Source of the DNA: an uncultured Siphonobacter sp.
GTDB taxonomy: Bacteria > Bacteroidota > Bacteroidia > Cytophagales > Spirosomataceae
NCBI GenBank assembly: GCA_913774715.1
Contig: CAJYHS010000099.1
Location: 1 to 64,000, forward strand
Reading direction: 5' to 3'
Length of the DNA stretch: 64,000 nt
This document shows, in pieces, positions 35,978 through 45,100 of the stretch; the first letter of the stretch is position 1, and each line of letters opens with the position of its first letter. The notes beneath the pieces were generated by a model that had not been told where the DNA came from, did not search any database, and worked only from the letters and a program-made list of their open reading frames with translations. Both the position numbers and the translations under genes were made by a program.

Positions 35978-37354
35978 TTAAGTAGAACTGGTCTTTTTTA
36001 AGGGAAACTCCGGGGGCAGGGTTTGACTGCGACCATCGCTCAAATAAATGCGATTGTTCTTCTCGTCAAAGCTTTTGATGTGACGGGTATTGGCTAGAAT
36101 GTGGGGCAGGTACGGGCTTAGCAGGGTAAAATCATAGTTTTCCTGCAAAGCCAGACTTACTTTATCTAATACCGTATCCGATTCAATGCGGTTACCGTTG
36201 ATGAGATGAATCGTGTAGGGGGTGGCCAGAAACGAAATATTATCGACGGCAATGTATTCTCTTACTCCCTTTCGTACATCCACGTGCACCCGGTCACGAA
36301 CGATGAGTTCTTCTTCTTCGGATTCGGGTTCCAAGCGGTTGGAAAGCTCCCAGGTGCGGATGGTCTTGGTCATGAGTTCATTTTCAACCAAAAAACCATC
36401 GTGGCCGTAGAGAGAGTCAATTTCAGTTAATTCAGCCTGGGGAATATATCGGGCTAAAAACCGCTGCTCTTCGACAGGAAATAATACGTCCGACTGAATG
36501 CCGATAATAAGGGTCTGGGCTTTAATGCGGTTCAAGGCCGACATGGCTCCGCCGCGATTTCTGCCCACATCGTGCGAATCCATCATTCTCGACAGACTAT
36601 AATAGGAAAAGGCATTGAACCGGGTAGCAATTTTTTCTCCCTGATACCGCTGATACGAACTGGCCCTGAAATGCTCAAGCACAGATTCTTCGCGGGCCTG
36701 GGTATACTCGTACATGACTGCACTGCGATAACTCAGTAGAGCAGTGGCCCGGGCGGCTTTCATGCCCATGCTGCCCGCGTCCGCTCGCCGCTCCTGCCAG
36801 GTTTGATCAGCTTCAATGGCCATGCGCTGGGACTCATTAAAGGCAATACCCCAAGGCGACATGCGGGCATTGGTGGCAATTAGAATGAGCTGTTTAAACA
36901 GCTCCGGCTTTTGAATGGCCCACTCTAGAGCCTGCTGCCCGCCCAGGGAACCACCTACAAGCATACTAACGTGATGAATTTGTAAATACTCCCGCAACAG
37001 ATCCAGGCTTTTGACAACGTCACGAATGGTCACTAGAGGAAAATCCTGATAATAAGGCTCCTGCGTAAGCGGGTTAATCGAAAGAGCCGAGGTAGAACCG
37101 TAAGCCGAGCTAAGCACGTTAGCGCAAACAATAAAGTACTGCCTCGTATCGAGCAACTTTCCTTCACCCACCAGTCCACTCCACCAATCCGTCACGTCTG
37201 AATTACCCGTCAGGGCGTGACAAATCCAAACCACGTTATCCGCGGTAGCGTTTAACTTTCCAAAGGTGTGATAGGCTACCTCAATTTCGGGTAACGTCTC
37301 TCCGCATTCCAGGTCAAACGGCTGCGGATAGTGAAAAATCTGTAACTCAGACAA
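35978..37354 (-). CDS. metX: Homoserine O-acetyltransferase with an extra C-terminal LytTR-like domain
   Basis: Makes O-acetyl-L-homoserine from homoserine and acetyl-CoA. Residues 1 to about 345 form the alpha/beta-hydrolase core with nucleophile elbow GGSLGGQQ (Ser136), Asp289 (GIQSDVLFP) and His318 (YGHDGF). Typical MetX ends near here, but this protein has 458 residues. The additional segment (about 366-450: [20 protein letters not shown], then [41 protein letters not shown]) has the strand/helix pattern of a LytTR DNA-binding domain, with an altered recognition loop. It follows metY by 102 bp in an operon led by a SAM-I riboswitch. The core call is firm; the extra domain is by eye. Confidence 0.92.
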
Positions 37355-37456: not shown

Positions 37457-38824
<1,368 letters not shown>

Positions 38825-38854
38825 TCAGGATGCAACCAACAACAAGAAGAGTCA

Positions 38855-38870
38855 CCACCCTTGCGGGCGG
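38855..38870 (-). terminator. Candidate expression-platform hairpin
   Basis: On the minus strand CCGCCC-GCAA-GGGTGG forms a short GC stem-loop between the riboswitch and metY, followed by TGACTCTTCTTGTTG, which is only moderately T-rich. It could be the regulated terminator, but no competing antiterminator pairing was established. Confidence 0.3.
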
Positions 38871-38959
38871 AAGCCTTAAAAAGAAAACAAGGGATTGAAT
38901 AGGAGGGCAGAGTAGCAGCCCCCAAGAGAAGGGTCGTCCGGTGCATGAAAGTTCGCTTT

Positions 38960-39077
38960 ACTTATCTCCCCCCGAAGACCTTCTTCGGGGCAGGAATTAG
39001 CACCTTGTTTACGTGATGGTTCGTAAATAGGTTGCCAGCGGTTCACAGAGCCCGTCTCTCCCCGCTTCTCGATAAGT
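38960..39077 (-). promoter_or_regulatory. SAM-I (S-box) riboswitch upstream of metY-metX
   Basis: Reading the minus strand: ACTTATCGAGAAGCGGGGAG, then GACGGGCTCTGTGAACC, GCTGGCAACC, a P3 stem TTTACG...CGTAAA, AAGGTGCTAATTCCTGCCCC, a P4 stem with GAAGA/TCTTC, and GGGGGGAGATAAGT. These are the conserved S-box blocks (CTTATC.AGAG, TGAA.CC, GGCAACC, GGTGCnAATTCC, GATAAG) in order, and ACTTATC pairs with GATAAGT to close P1. It should sense SAM and control the methionine operon in cis. Confidence 0.95.
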
Positions 39078-39106
39078 CAGCATGGTTCGGGCTGACTTTT
39101 CAAGAG

Positions 39107-39114
39107 CAAACTTA
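39107..39114 (-). promoter_or_regulatory. Candidate -7 box (TAAGTTTG) upstream of the SAM riboswitch
   Basis: TAAGTTTG on the minus strand matches TAnnTTTG and ends about 30 nt before the first riboswitch stem, a suitable position for the operon promoter. The -33 element is not obvious. Confidence 0.5.
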
Positions 39115-39327: not shown

Positions 39328-39960
39328 ATGGAAAATCCCGTCCTTATTTTTGGAGCCAAAGCGTTGGGTAAAACGGCTCTTGATATTTTTAACCGCAATC
39401 AGGTCATCGTCTACGGCTTTTTAGAGGATGACGCCAGCATGCAGGGTACCGAGATTGGTGAGGTCTCCGTGTTTTCAACCACGGATGATGAAAATTTTAC
39501 TAGTCTCATCGGTAATAAATGCGAAGCCTTTATCGCCCTGGAAGATCGCACGGAACGCAAAACTCTGGTCGAGTTCCTGCACGAAACTCGCCAGACGCAG
39601 CCCGTGAATGCCGTGCACCCTTCGGCTATCCTATCCGAAAACGCCCATATTGGCCACGGAAATCTCATTGCTGCCGGCGTCATTATTCAGACCTTTGCCA
39701 AAGTAAGCAACCACTGTGTTTTGCACGCGGGAGCTATTATTGACACGGAAACCGAAGTGGAGGACTTTGTACAAATCGGCGCGGGAAGTGTCATCGGAAT
39801 GGGGGCTAAGGTGCGGGAAAACGCATTCATTGGTTCGGGCGTAACCATTGTAGGGGGCGTTGAAATCGGGAAGAATGCCCGCATTGGAGCGGGCTCTGTC
39901 GTTGTTGAAAACGTTCCGGCGGGGGCTACAGTCTTTGGTAACCCGGCTAAAAAGGTATAA
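39328..39960 (+). CDS. Left-handed beta-helix sugar O/N-acyltransferase (NeuD/PglD-like)
   Basis: 210 residues. The N-terminal Rossmann-like part (PVLIFGAKALGKTALDIFN) is followed by hexapeptide repeats (HIGHGNLIAAGVIIQTFAKV, then VEIGKNARIGAGSVVVENVP), the architecture of NeuD/PglD sugar acetyltransferases that use acetyl-CoA. The end, FGNPAKKV, is the standard finish. It is a single-gene unit with its own promoter and a strong terminator directly after it. It is located before the polysaccharide locus and may modify a precursor sugar, though the acceptor cannot be assigned. Confidence 0.85.
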   Translation: MENPVLIFGAKALGKTALDIFNRNQVIVYGFLEDDASMQGTEIGEVSVFSTTDDENFTSLIGNKCEAFIALEDRTERKTLVEFLHETRQTQPVNAVHPSAILSENAHIGHGNLIAAGVIIQTFAKVSNHCVLHAGAIIDTETEVEDFVQIGAGSVIGMGAKVRENAFIGSGVTIVGGVEIGKNARIGAGSVVVENVPAGATVFGNPAKKV

Positions 39961-39975
39961 GTAACATTCTTTTTA

Positions 39976-40025
39976 CAAAAGCGGACTCGGTTTGAAACAT
40001 TCAAACCGAGTCCGCTTTTGCTTTT
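39976..40025 (+). terminator. Strong intrinsic terminator
   Basis: CAAAAGCGGACTCGGTTTGAA (39976-39996) and TTCAAACCGAGTCCGCTTTTG (40000-40020) form a perfect 21-bp stem with a 3-nt loop, followed by CTTTTT. It ends the acyltransferase transcript. Confidence 0.9.
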
Positions 40026-40707
40026 TATAGCCTGTAAATCTCTGGCTTAAGTGGAGGAATTGAAGATAAAGAGGCAGGGTACCATTAATTTTTTCTAATC
40101 TCAGGTAGGTATATGTCCGATCTCAACCCTCGAGAGAAAAGACCCAATAAAAATGGTAAGAAATCAATATGAGGCAGGTAGGTAGAAAAAATAGCTAATT
40201 GTACTATTTAAGTAATGATTATCAATCTACAAAAAATAGTAATGATTTAATTCTATATAAATAGCTACTAATGAGTAGTTTGTCTCTAGTTTAACAAGTG
40301 TGGGGAATTTTGTGTGGTATAAATTTTTAAGGAGATACAGGGCTTCTCTATTAGCATGAAAAATTGAATGATATTTGAATCTGAAAATTGCTTTTTTTTT
40401 CGATCAAATGTCTTGAAAGTGATCCAACCGGTAATTTTTTCCGTACTTATAGATCGGAGCCCCGTGTAGTGATTGTAAACAAGATCCATTCATTCGTAGG
40501 TGAATTCTATGTATAAGTCTTTAAAATGAATGGCCAAAATTGTTCATTTCAGAGCCATGACCAACCCTTCTATAGAATTTATTAGTATCTGAAATTTATG
40601 AAGTTTAATAGTCCGGACTCATCTTATTTTTTGTTTAGGATGTGGTTATTTATGAGTAAAAGGTCTCTTTTATTTGGGCTATTCCATCTTAATTCATTGG
40701 TACAATT
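40026..40707. other. Intergenic region before the capsule locus
   Basis: About 680 bp, AT-rich, with no credible gene (the minus-strand ORF at 40286-40489 has no family features). It should contain the promoter of the polysaccharide locus. No TAnnTTTG box was firmly identified. Confidence 0.5.
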
Positions 40708-41625
40708 ATGAATACGGAATTTGATGAACTAGTTTCGCTATCTGAAAAAGACGAAGTTCGTTTGCATACGGGTGCTCAGATTTTTGCAAAGACTACTCCT
40801 GAGCCAGACCATACCAGCGATTCCCCTGTTCGCACCACTATAAAGTCAATGAGTTCTACGAGTATATGGCAGCGTTTAAAAAACCGCTTTTTTACGGGTG
40901 CTGAACCCGAAACGCAAGAGCCGGTAAAAGACTGCTTCTGGAAGGTTGATATACACTCCCATCTGTTACCGGGAGTCGATGATGGAGTCTCTTCCTGGGA
41001 AGAAACTCTGGCCTGTTTACAACAGTTCTCGGAGTGGGGGATTAGTAAAGTTATTACGACTCCTCACGTTAGCCGGGACTGGTTCCCTAATAAATATCAG
41101 CAGTTACTGGAAGGACAGGAGCAGTTGCAAGCGCTGGTTCGGGAGCATAATCTGCCCCTTACCATTGAAGTAGCGGCTGAATACCTGCTGGATGATTTCT
41201 TTCTGGACTTACTCAACAGCCGCGAAGTGTTAACCTTTGGAGCGGAAAAGTATATACTAGTGGAAACGGCCTGGTCCTCGGCTCCTTTGCACTTATCAGA
41301 TTTGATTTTTCGGATTCAGTCGGCGGGGTATACGCCCATTTTAGCTCACCCCGAGCGCTACAAATACTATAAGAATTTTGAAGCCGAATTATCGCATCAC
41401 CGCGATGCGGGTTGTTTGCTCCAGCTTAACGCCATGTCTCTTTCAGGTAAGTACGGAGAGCAGGCTCGTCGGCAGGGAAAAATCCTCCTGCAAAAGGGAT
41501 GGGTAGACTTTATTGGCAGTGATTTGCACCGTCCGGGCGATTTACCCCGCTTTGAAAAGATTTTTTCTTTGCCAGAATTCAAGGAATTAGCCAAGCAACC
41601 CCTGCGAAATTCGAAGTTATTATAA
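40708..41625 (+). CDS. CpsB/YwqE-type PHP-domain tyrosine phosphatase
   Basis: 305 residues. The catalytic PHP domain begins near residue 77: VDIHSHLLPGVDDGVSSWEE, then VITTPHVSRDWF, EVAAEYLLDD, ILAHPERYKYY and FIGSDLHRPGD. The metal-binding His/Asp/Glu set is complete. CpsB/YwqE enzymes dephosphorylate the capsule tyrosine kinase, here encoded two genes downstream. The first 75 or so residues are low-complexity and poorly conserved; an internal ATG at 40849 (MSSTSIWQRLKNRFF) is a possible alternative start. It is the first gene of the plus-strand locus. Confidence 0.88.
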   Translation: MNTEFDELVSLSEKDEVRLHTGAQIFAKTTPEPDHTSDSPVRTTIKSMSSTSIWQRLKNRFFTGAEPETQEPVKDCFWKVDIHSHLLPGVDDGVSSWEETLACLQQFSEWGISKVITTPHVSRDWFPNKYQQLLEGQEQLQALVREHNLPLTIEVAAEYLLDDFFLDLLNSREVLTFGAEKYILVETAWSSAPLHLSDLIFRIQSAGYTPILAHPERYKYYKNFEAELSHHRDAGCLLQLNAMSLSGKYGEQARRQGKILLQKGWVDFIGSDLHRPGDLPRFEKIFSLPEFKELAKQPLRNSKLL

Positions 41626-41905
41626 TTATAACAAGAAATTGGATTTTGCTAAGTTAGTGTTATTCCAAGTCATTCTTCTTGCCGGGAGTGTTATGTAAAT
41701 GTTGTGTTATCGTTACATTTATTTTGCATGTTTCTGAAATAGTAGTTGAAAATGCCTGAGTATTTCTTAAGTACTATTGTGTTTTGATAGTAAATTTTAT
41801 TTTTTTGAAGATTACCCGTTCTAAATTAGTTGTTCACGAAAAATTGTACTTTCTTTGAAAAAGAGTTCAGAGTTCGCCAGCTTTTTGCACTATTTTAAGC
41901 TTTAT

Positions 41906-42733
41906 ATGTTCGCCAGATCAGTCCGCCAGGATCGGGTAGCCATAGTGAAGAATGTTGCTTCATTATTCGTTCTTGCCCTCTTGCTTTCTAGTTGTGTATC
42001 CTCGAAAAACTTAGCACTTTTCCAGGACGGCCCTAATACAACGATTGACAGCTTAAGTATAGCGAAGCAATATACACCGACCATTCAGGTAGGGGATGTA
42101 CTAAACATAAGTGTTACGAGTTTAAATCCGGAAGCGTCCGCTGTTTTCAATTTACCTGAAAACATGTCGATGGTGCAGGGACAAGGCCTGATGGCCTCGG
42201 CTAACCCCTTAGCGTATCAACCCGGTTACGTTGTAAGTAAAGATGGGACGATTGAGTTTCCGATGCTGGGTAAGATCAATGTGTTAGGACAGGCTTCTTC
42301 TCAAATTGCTACAACGATTAAGGAAAAACTGAAGGTATATCTGAAAGAGCCCTCGGTTAATGTTCGGAACGTAAACTTCCGGATCTCGGTATTGGGTGAA
42401 GTGAACCATCCTTCGTTGTTTTTGATCAACAACGAACAGGTAACGATCCTTCAGGCCTTAAGTATGGCTAATGACCTGACGATTTTTGGCAAACGCGAGA
42501 ATGTGTTAGTCATCCGGGAAGAAAATGGAAAGAAAACGTTTGCCCGTATTGATTTAACGAAGCGGGATGTATTTAGCTCTCCTTATTATTATTTACATCC
42601 CAATGATGTAGTATACGTAGAACCCAACCAAGCTCGTGCGGCATCAACGGACAATACCTATCGTGTAGCTCCCATTGTGATCAGTGCGGCTTCAGCTGTT
42701 CTAGTCCTAGTAAGTGTGTTAGTTCGTAGATAA
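41906..42733 (+). CDS. Wza-like polysaccharide export lipoprotein
   Basis: I prefer the ATG at 41906 (MFARSVRQDRVAIVKN) to the TTG of the track. The protein has about 275 residues and a lipobox LLLSSC. The Poly_export domain covers YTPTIQVGDVLNISVTSLNP and VVSKDGTIEFPMLGKINVLG. A SLBB domain follows (RISVLGEVNHPSLFLINNEQ), and a hydrophobic C terminus (VISAASAVLVLVSVLVRR) likely crosses a membrane. It forms the outer-membrane export pore and works with the BY-kinase encoded 51 bp downstream. Confidence 0.9.
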   Translation: MFARSVRQDRVAIVKNVASLFVLALLLSSCVSSKNLALFQDGPNTTIDSLSIAKQYTPTIQVGDVLNISVTSLNPEASAVFNLPENMSMVQGQGLMASANPLAYQPGYVVSKDGTIEFPMLGKINVLGQASSQIATTIKEKLKVYLKEPSVNVRNVNFRISVLGEVNHPSLFLINNEQVTILQALSMANDLTIFGKRENVLVIREENGKKTFARIDLTKRDVFSSPYYYLHPNDVVYVEPNQARAASTDNTYRVAPIVISAASAVLVLVSVLVRR

Positions 42734-42784
42734 GTACGGAGTTACAACGAAATCTAATCAAGGCAATCCACTCTTTTTAATTAT

Positions 42785-45100
42785 ATGGCAACGAATAACC
42801 CCTATACTTCTTACGTCCCTTATCAGGTCGTTGAGACAGATCAAACGAACATTCGGGCAATTCTTCTTCGCTACGTTCGCAACTGGCCCTGGTTTCTGGT
42901 TTCAGTGGCAGTAGCCTTAGGCGGAGCTTATGTCTATTTATTATATCAGCAGCCGATTTATCGTACCCAGGCCAGCCTTTTAATCAAGGATGAGAAAAAG
43001 GGGGCAGCCGATGCGGGCGAGCTTATGAAGCAGCTGGATATTTTTGGTCAGCAGAAACTGGTTGATAATGAAATTGAGATCCTGAAATCTTATACGTTAA
43101 TGAATAAGATTGTGGGAGATCTCAATCTGGATGTTAAATTCTTTGAGCCGACTACCTTTGGAAAGCGGGAGGTATACGGAGATGTTCCTATTAAATTCAT
43201 TATTGAGCAGCCCAAACCCGAACTTTACAAAGAGAAACTAACAATTAGTTTCCCCGAGAACAATATCGTTCGTATCAATGATCATAATTATCCGGTGAAC
43301 CAAAGTGTAGAAACGCCTTATGGCCGTCTTCGCTTTTTTGCTTCAAGGCCAATAATTAAAGGTGAACAGCAGTTCATTGCTCAAGTTTCTCCGAGAGCAC
43401 AAACGGTAGAAAGTTATTTAAAAAATCTAAAGACAGAAACTACTAGTAAACAGTCAACGGTTATTCTGTTAACTCTGGAAGATGCTGTTCCTGCCAAAGG
43501 CGAAGCAATCTTGAACCGTTTAATTGATGAATATAATTCAGCGGCTGTAGAAGACAAAAATAAAACGGCGGCTAATACTCTTAAATTTTTGGAAGAACGC
43601 CTCGGTTTAGTTTCCGGCGAATTACAAAACGTAGAGAAAAACGTTGCTCAGTACAAAACTTCACAGGGCATTACGGATTTGAGTGCTCAGGCTCAGAGTT
43701 TCCTGCAAACGGTTCAACAGAACGATGCCCAATTAAGCGAGGTAAATATCAAGCTTGGGGCGATTGATGATGTTGATAGATATATCAATTCTAGAAGTTC
43801 TGAACGTACTGGTGCACCTTCTACGGCCGGTTTGAATGACCCCGTTTTATTAGGGCTTATTACAAAAGTATCTGAGTTAGAACTGGAACGTGAACGTTTG
43901 GCTCGCACTACTTCAGAACAAAATCCAATGCTCCAAACTTTGGAAAGTCAAATCAAGTCTATCAAGTCTAATATTCGTGAAAATGTGCAAACAACTAAGG
44001 CAATCTTAACGACTTCGAAGAATCAATTGACCGCTACCAATCGTAAAATGGAAGGAGTCATTCGGAGTATTCCTCAGAAAGAACGTTCATTAATTGACAT
44101 TTCTCGTCAACAGGCTATTAAAAATGATCAGTATACGTTTTTGCTGCAAAAACGTGAAGAAACAGCCGTTTCGTATGCTTCTACCATTGCCGATAGTCGT
44201 ACGGTAGACGCGGCACGTAGTTCAAATGAACCCGTGAAACCCGTGGGTAAAATGATTTTTGCCTTATTTGGACTGGTAGGGTTAGTTATTCCCGTAGGGG
44301 TGATGGCTGGCAAAGATGCCATGAATAACCGAGTAATGCGTCGGACGGATGTAGAAGAACTCACTAACGTACCTATTCTGGGTGAAGTAGTGAAGAGTAA
44401 AGATGCCGATCGTCTGATTATGGCTCCGCAAAACCGTTCGGTCATTTCAGAACAGATTCGTACCATTCGTACCAACCTACAATTCCTGAAAGCGGCTTCT
44501 GACAGTCAGGTACTTCTATTCACTTCTAGTATTTCAGGTGAAGGAAAATCATTTGTTTCATTAAACCTGGGTGCAAGTTTAGCTTTAGTAGATCGTCCTA
44601 CCGTAATTTTAGAAATGGATTTACGCAAACCCAAACTTCGCGAAGCATTGGGTATGCAAAATGGTGTAGGTATTAGTAATTACCTAATTGGAGAATGTAC
44701 ATTGGACGAAGCTCTGCAACCCATTCCTGGATATGATAATTACTTTCTGATGCCAAGTGGACCTATTCCGCCGAACCCTTCAGAGTTATTGAGTAGCCCA
44801 CGTCTAGAGCAGATGATGAATGAATTACGCGAACGCTTTAGCTATGTGCTCGTCGATTCACCTCCAATTGGTTTGGTGACCGATGCTCAGTTGATCGCTC
44901 CATTTGCCGATACAACAATGTATATGGTTCGTCATGATGTGACGCCTAAGCATTACTTAAAGATGATTGATACGCTGTATAAAGAACAACGTTTCCAGAA
45001 ATTGAATATCATCCTTAACGGGGTAGGCGAAGGCGAAGCGTATTACTATAGCTATAGCTACGGATATTACGGAGAAGATGAGAAGAAAAAACTGAATTAA
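42785..45100 (+). CDS. Wzc-like polysaccharide co-polymerase / BY tyrosine kinase
   Basis: 771 residues. N-terminal Wzz domain with a first membrane helix (NWPWFLVSVAVALGGAYVYL), a long periplasmic coiled coil (about 260-430), a second helix (MIFALFGLVGLVIPVGVMAG) and a C-terminal kinase: Walker A SSISGEGKSF (about 580), Walker A' VILEMDLRKPKL, Walker B YVLVDSPPIG. The tail YYYSYSYGYYGEDEKKK is the tyrosine cluster that is autophosphorylated. It controls chain length and export with Wza and is the expected substrate of the CpsB-type phosphatase. Kinase and co-polymerase are fused as in Gram-negative Wzc. Confidence 0.94.
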   Translation: MATNNPYTSYVPYQVVETDQTNIRAILLRYVRNWPWFLVSVAVALGGAYVYLLYQQPIYRTQASLLIKDEKKGAADAGELMKQLDIFGQQKLVDNEIEILKSYTLMNKIVGDLNLDVKFFEPTTFGKREVYGDVPIKFIIEQPKPELYKEKLTISFPENNIVRINDHNYPVNQSVETPYGRLRFFASRPIIKGEQQFIAQVSPRAQTVESYLKNLKTETTSKQSTVILLTLEDAVPAKGEAILNRLIDEYNSAAVEDKNKTAANTLKFLEERLGLVSGELQNVEKNVAQYKTSQGITDLSAQAQSFLQTVQQNDAQLSEVNIKLGAIDDVDRYINSRSSERTGAPSTAGLNDPVLLGLITKVSELELERERLARTTSEQNPMLQTLESQIKSIKSNIRENVQTTKAILTTSKNQLTATNRKMEGVIRSIPQKERSLIDISRQQAIKNDQYTFLLQKREETAVSYASTIADSRTVDAARSSNEPVKPVGKMIFALFGLVGLVIPVGVMAGKDAMNNRVMRRTDVEELTNVPILGEVVKSKDADRLIMAPQNRSVISEQIRTIRTNLQFLKAASDSQVLLFTSSISGEGKSFVSLNLGASLALVDRPTVILEMDLRKPKLREALGMQNGVGISNYLIGECTLDEALQPIPGYDNYFLMPSGPIPPNPSELLSSPRLEQMMNELRERFSYVLVDSPPIGLVTDAQLIAPFADTTMYMVRHDVTPKHYLKMIDTLYKEQRFQKLNIILNGVGEGEAYYYSYSYGYYGEDEKKKLN

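Follow-up and report, generated by a model that had tools for sequence, protein, structure and literature searches.

How SAM-I riboswitches act in Bacteroidota, without Shine-Dalgarno pairing or terminators, has so far been left to default predictions, and the question is posed by the metY leader in a 64,000-nt stretch of contig CAJYHS010000099.1 (hereafter the window) from an uncultured Siphonobacter sp. Initiation in Bacteroidota proceeds without Shine-Dalgarno pairing and is tuned by mRNA structure (PMC6847099, PMC3155529). The initial annotation had proposed a SAM-I riboswitch leading a metY-metX pair, citing the conserved S-box blocks and a closing P1 helix. By cmscan of the 64-kb window, RF00162 (SAM) was matched at 38959-39078 on the minus strand over the full length of the model (positions 1-108), with an E-value of 3.9e-17 across the window and a score of 79.7 bits, well above the gathering cut-off of 44.4 bits; no other Rfam family reached Rfam thresholds in the window. 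The covariance search suggested as a check was thus significant, and the earlier coordinates agreed with the match to within 1 nt. The RF00162 alignment contained the GGCAACC block, AAGGUGCUAAUUCC and P4, as well as P1, formed by GACUUAUC (39078-39071) and GAUAAGUA (38966-38959) with a non-standard outermost pair. Four RF00162 matches were present in the genome of the window, and the metY-leader aptamer was common to all six Siphonobacter genomes. On the grounds of covariance score, conservation and position, the aptamer before metY is confirmed as a SAM-I riboswitch.

The position of the aptamer is that expected of the class, i.e., upstream of methionine/SAM metabolism genes. The metY gene (37457-38758, minus strand) starts at 38758, 200 nt downstream of the aptamer, and encodes a 433-aa O-acetylhomoserine sulfhydrylase (homocysteine synthase; TIGR01326 647 bits, cut-off 495 bits; PF01053); Siphonobacter aquaeclarae metY is 91% identical to it. 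After a gap of 102 nt, metY is followed on its strand by a gene for a 458-aa metX-like homoserine O-acyltransferase (35978-37354, minus strand; PF00561), a name that we use at the family level only because the top-scoring equivalog models fall short of their curated cut-offs (TIGR01392, 351 vs 500 bits; PRK00175, 322 vs 331). Strand and spacing suggest that the two genes form one operon. The metX-like ORF carries a C-terminal extension of approximately 123 aa (35981-36349, minus strand) that matched no Pfam family and had no clear relative in the PDB; a guess that this extension is a LytTR domain was unsupported in domain and structure searches. On the plus strand, divergent polysaccharide-synthesis genes occupy 39328-45100 (a NeuD-family acetyltransferase, a Cps4B-like phosphatase, an export-type lipoprotein ORF and a Wzc-like ORF), the first of which is preceded by a TACTTTTG box that may be a promoter.

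The initial annotation had also seen no obvious terminator in the expression platform, and this observation stood: there was no intrinsic terminator between the aptamer and metY, the best terminator-like site of the leader being weaker than the shuffle mean. How regulation might work without one had been left open, the features described below, i.e., an upstream open reading frame (uORF), its tandem Cys codons and a hairpin (P0) upstream of P1, having gone unnoticed. Alignment of six Siphonobacter metY leaders revealed three conserved blocks outside the aptamer: a promoter-like box, a GAAAAGTCAG block that could base-pair with the 5' end of the aptamer, and an AUG after P1. The box, TAAGTTTG (39107-39114, minus strand), lies at the same distance from the aptamer in five of the six leaders and is a probable promoter -7 element, an assignment that relies on the Bacteroidota consensus, TAnnTTTG. 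If it is correct, transcription probably starts near 39101.

Near this predicted 5' end, the sequence AAGUC pairs with nucleotides preceding and including the first five of P1. The resulting hairpin, P0, comprises a 5' arm, AAGUCAGC (39091-39098, minus strand), identified by comparative pairing, and a 3' arm, GCUGACUU (39074-39081, minus strand), with compensatory changes across genera. Given that the last five nucleotides of the 3' arm are the first five of the P1 5' strand, P0 and P1 are mutually exclusive over 39078-39074; the minimum-energy structure predicted for the window without ligand contained P0 and not P1. The pairing was assessed across loci anchored on AAGUC by scoring only pairs 6-10, which had not been used in finding P0. 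Of 170 such pairs, 128 were standard, compared with 113.6 +/- 3.8 (maximum 127) in 2000 partner shuffles, and A-U to G-C exchanges were observed at pairs 6 and 7. The anchor was found in 34 distinct loci among 86 candidates, so P0 is not a feature of every SAM-I leader.

Downstream of the aptamer, the uORF (38797-38946, minus strand) comprises 49 codons, with its AUG 13 nt after the last standard P1 pair and its stop 38 nt before metY. Both the AUG and the reading frame after P1 were kept in all six Siphonobacter genomes. The stop lies 37-41 nt before metY in five of these species, and in S. aquaeclarae the uORF has 32 codons and ends 90 nt before metY. Codons 35-36 are tandem Cys codons, UGU UGU (38839-38844); a Cys pair occurs at this site in the window and three sister species (4/6), and at least one Cys in all six. 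Of the features expected of a Cys leader peptide, the window therefore has a start codon in a conserved place and a Cys cluster, but not a Cys run beside the stop, as its pair lies 13 codons before the stop. The uORF start region, AUGCACCGGACGAC (38933-38946), is predicted to pair with the Cys-codon region at 38843-38830 in the minimum-energy fold without ligand, and the partner GCAU is kept in five of the six species. Just 3' of the Cys codons, and still inside the uORF, the alignments contain a hairpin, UGAAACGACUCGUUUCA (38811-38827, minus strand), whose stem by eye varies in sequence while its pairing is kept (GAAACGA/UCGUUUC, GAAACAGA/UCUGUUUC and GGAAAGCAG/CUGCUUUCC).

Within Siphonobacter, the uORF displayed no codon-position-3 bias, the codon positions changing about equally, and a second frame was also open in three of five species, owing to the pyrimidine-rich nature of the leader. 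Coding evidence from the genus alone is consequently weak, and we make no claim for conservation of the peptide sequence. The case for the window uORF is instead built on the AUG position, the preserved frame, the kept Cys pair and the poly-Cys relatives.

We extracted metY loci from 80 named genome records, of which the aptamer-bearing ones yielded 49 leaders. In 45 of these, an AUG followed the P1 3' strand at a distance of no more than 16 nt, most often 11-12 nt. When one leader was taken per genus, an AUG was present at +5 to +16 after P1 in 25 of the 26 genera with a SAM-I/metY leader, whereas 1000 dinucleotide shuffles gave 4.1 on average and 12 at most. The genera, which we assigned by sequence similarity and from the titles of the records, with MAGs grouped by similarity, are not independent samples. 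SAM-I riboswitches are common in the phylum as defined by GTDB (167 of 198 sampled Bacteroidota genomes), and a wider survey was made of the higher-scoring aptamers among the matches listed. Among those matches, 21 of 33 metY-family loci had an AUG between +3 and +14 relative to the aptamer end, the exceptions including a different paralogue and short leaders, as did 3 of 18 metX loci and 0 of 17 metH loci. In two of these metX loci the AUG was the start codon of metX itself, at +8 and +9, i.e., in the place of the uORF AUG, as expected if P1 gates whatever AUG sits there. At three loci (L198, L212, L039), the metX start codon was located 8-10 nt after the SAM-I P1, an arrangement that suggests direct translational control.

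The frames opened by these AUGs were rich in Cys codons. With one leader per genus, 86 of 871 in-frame codons (9.9%) encoded Cys, whereas the remaining frames contained 34 and 38 Cys codons. Ten uORFs had at least three Cys within five codons; shuffled sequences gave 0.24 such uORFs on average and never more than 2. The uORFs of Pontibacter, Thermonema, Parachryseolinea, Mucilaginibacter, Adhaeribacter, Telluribacter and several MAGs end in or beside a Cys run of up to nine consecutive residues. Across all sets, we counted 24 Cys-cluster uORFs, in most of which the cluster ends at or beside the stop codon; UGU and UGC were mixed in 22 of the 24, indicating that selection acts on the encoded Cys and not on a repeat in the RNA. 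In Runella (in part), Aquiflexum and Cognataquiflexum, the AUG was present without a Cys cluster, and Cys sensing is thus not universal. Five metY loci that had been set up as SAM-I-free controls also had poly-Cys frames. The aptamer-free status of four of them proved to be wrong, an RF00162 aptamer having been missed by the text pattern, and the fifth (L119) lies at a contig edge. The poly-Cys ORF of one of the four (L111) starts approximately 170 nt after the aptamer and is an exception to the spacing rule; Hymenobacter loci called aptamer-free by the same pattern do carry RF00162, with the uORF at +7.

On the basis of these comparisons, we propose, with a probability of about 0.6, that the output of the SAM-I aptamer is the start codon of the leader uORF, and neither a terminator nor the start of metY. 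The 5' end of the transcript would initially fold into P0, taking five nucleotides of the P1 5' strand through a pairing that is backed by covariation, and without SAM the uORF AUG would be left free. SAM binding would then allow P1 to displace P0 at these five nucleotides and initiation at the uORF would be blocked, because P1 ends 13 nt before the AUG and hence within the 30S footprint. In constrained folds, accessibility of the uORF start did not change consistently between the P0 and P1 states but varied between species, so that any block imposed by P1 would need to be steric. For other SAM-I riboswitches, P1 has been predicted to control translation directly (PMC2258182); a block of the uORF AUG by P1 may be drawn by analogy with that prediction and with structure-tuned initiation in Bacteroidota (PMC6847099).

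Once the uORF is translated, the supply of Cys-tRNA would set the position of the ribosome, as for mycobacterial poly-Cys leader peptides. The analogy with the systems described in PMC1262725 and PMC9031893 makes a strong argument for such sensing in the poly-Cys relatives and a weaker one for the Cys pair of the window. In the final and least certain step, the translation state of the leader would decide whether RNA polymerase arrives at metY. In its simplest form, Rho would act on the C-rich, G-poor leader when this is uncovered by the ribosome. All metY leaders examined contain more C than G, nearly all of them more so than their own coding sequences, and those of Siphonobacter rank with the most pyrimidine-rich stretches of 150 nt when set against the background of the 64-kb window. 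This composition, together with the presence of a rho gene and the arguments against simple occlusion given below, favors Rho-dependent attenuation, although we hold this last step loosely, composition being what points to Rho. The expected logic is that metY-metX would be on at low SAM and further up when Cys is low too, in which case the RNA probably responds to both SAM and Cys, two sulphur signals and not one.

Several other explanations must be weighed against the proposed model. One is the classical SAM-I mechanism of the Firmicutes S-boxes, acting here through an intrinsic terminator that lies past P1 and went unrecognized, and a slight excess of leaders did contain a terminator-like site at or below -8 (8/45, vs 8.5% in shuffles). 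Nevertheless, the terminator/antiterminator arrangement of a classical attenuator was absent from the window leader, and in five of the six Siphonobacter leaders the terminator score was weaker than that of their own shuffle mean; we therefore regard this explanation as highly improbable. It is also doubtful, albeit less so, that this is an ordinary SAM-I riboswitch in which SAM-dependent refolding of the 200-nt leader hides the distant metY start and the uORF is incidental. Outside Firmicutes, riboswitches are most often predicted to act on translation (PMC2258182), and a long-range pairing between the P1 3' strand and the leader was predicted in the fold. In constrained folds, however, the accessibility of the metY start was about equal in the P0 and P1 states, which argues against simple occlusion and led us to reject direct hiding of this start; a ribosome held at the Cys codons opened it on folding only in S. 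aquaeclarae. Direct control of metY would, moreover, leave unexplained both the AUG after P1 in 25 of 26 genera and the in-frame poly-Cys.

A closer competitor, though still an unlikely one, is that the riboswitch gates the uORF as we propose and that translational coupling or reinitiation then carries ribosomes on to metY, with no role for the Cys codons in this genus. Coupling fits the species in which the uORF ends close to metY, such as the window (38 nt) and the relatives without Cys clusters in Runella, Dyadobacter and Cognataquiflexum (12-23 nt), and termination-reinitiation at a riboswitch-associated uORF is known for M. tuberculosis (Mtb) ppe2 (PMC11260477). Against it are the Cys pair kept in four of six species, with one Cys in all, and the distance of 88-326 nt between the uORF stop and metY in the poly-Cys relatives, which is too far for simple coupling.

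The aptamer and the Cys uORF of the proposed regulator each have precedents. The leader resembles SAM-I/S-box riboswitches (RF00162) in its aptamer core, P1 closure and class of target gene, but differs from them in that neither a terminator nor Shine-Dalgarno sequestration is seen, the upstream P0 takes the 5' strand of P1, and the P1-adjacent AUG is that of a uORF. Cys-codon leader peptides have been described in Actinobacteria (PMC1262725), and poly-Cys leaderless uORF attenuators in mycobacteria (Canestrari et al., 2020, as related in PMC9031893 and PMC13236596). The mycobacterial uORFs share with the leaders described here a short ORF, a Cys run near the stop, sulphur genes downstream and no identified terminator hairpin, but they are standalone and leaderless, whereas here the start follows a SAM-I aptamer and the window has a Cys pair with no terminal run. 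The uORFC-8-2 motif upstream of cysS in Rhodobacterales likewise has tandem Cys codons in a uORF, with proposed Cys-tRNA sensing, but includes an intrinsic terminator and no riboswitch (PMC8632094). At Mtb metE and ppe2, a B12 riboswitch and a translated uORF jointly affect the gene that follows, whereas the evidence here is comparative, and these riboswitches differ in ligand, aptamer and phylum, with no amino-acid-sensing codon run reported (PMC11260477). Text searches of a library of open-access papers did not find a SAM-I aptamer joined to a Cys uORF, or an upstream P0 of this kind. Within the scope of these searches, SAM-I riboswitches, Cys-codon uORFs and riboswitch-uORF pairs are known separately. 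A fixed AUG after P1, an upstream stem that competes with P1 and in-frame poly-Cys amount to a specific, testable answer to the question of SAM-I action in this phylum. If it is true, a metabolite riboswitch and an amino-acid leader peptide would operate in series on one transcript.

In its broadest form, the proposal is that Cytophagales and other Bacteroidota possess a composite regulator in which a SAM-I aptamer, through exchange between P0 and P1, controls access to the AUG of a Cys-sensing leader peptide. In this phylum, which does not rely on Shine-Dalgarno initiation, such a SAM-and-Cys logic gate in one leader would serve a sulphur regulon (metY, cysH, an AhpC/TSA-family gene and possibly genes for a cysteine desulfurase and a TonB receptor); we judge the odds of this generalization to be evenly balanced. 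At SAM-I loci of AhpC/TSA-family genes, the uORF directly after P1 reads MNPKQYLCLSCTSRC in this genome and MNAKLFACNARCCTCCC and MNCTTCLPCQRGAC in sister species, each followed by a stop. The cysteine-desulfurase-like (PF00266) and TonB-receptor SAM-I loci of Siphonobacter have short ORFs with single Cys codons, which we counted as weak. In this genome, three SAM-I aptamers (L003, L002 and L004) have a variant core, with AUCAGUGCUAA replacing AAGGUGCUAA; they precede the AhpC/TSA-family gene, the cysteine-desulfurase-like gene and the TonB receptor, and a short ORF lies directly after each P1. Finally, in another Bacteroidia family (L175), a SAM-I aptamer is followed by a uORF that ends in CCCCCCC at its stop codon, before a PAPS-reductase (cysH) gene.
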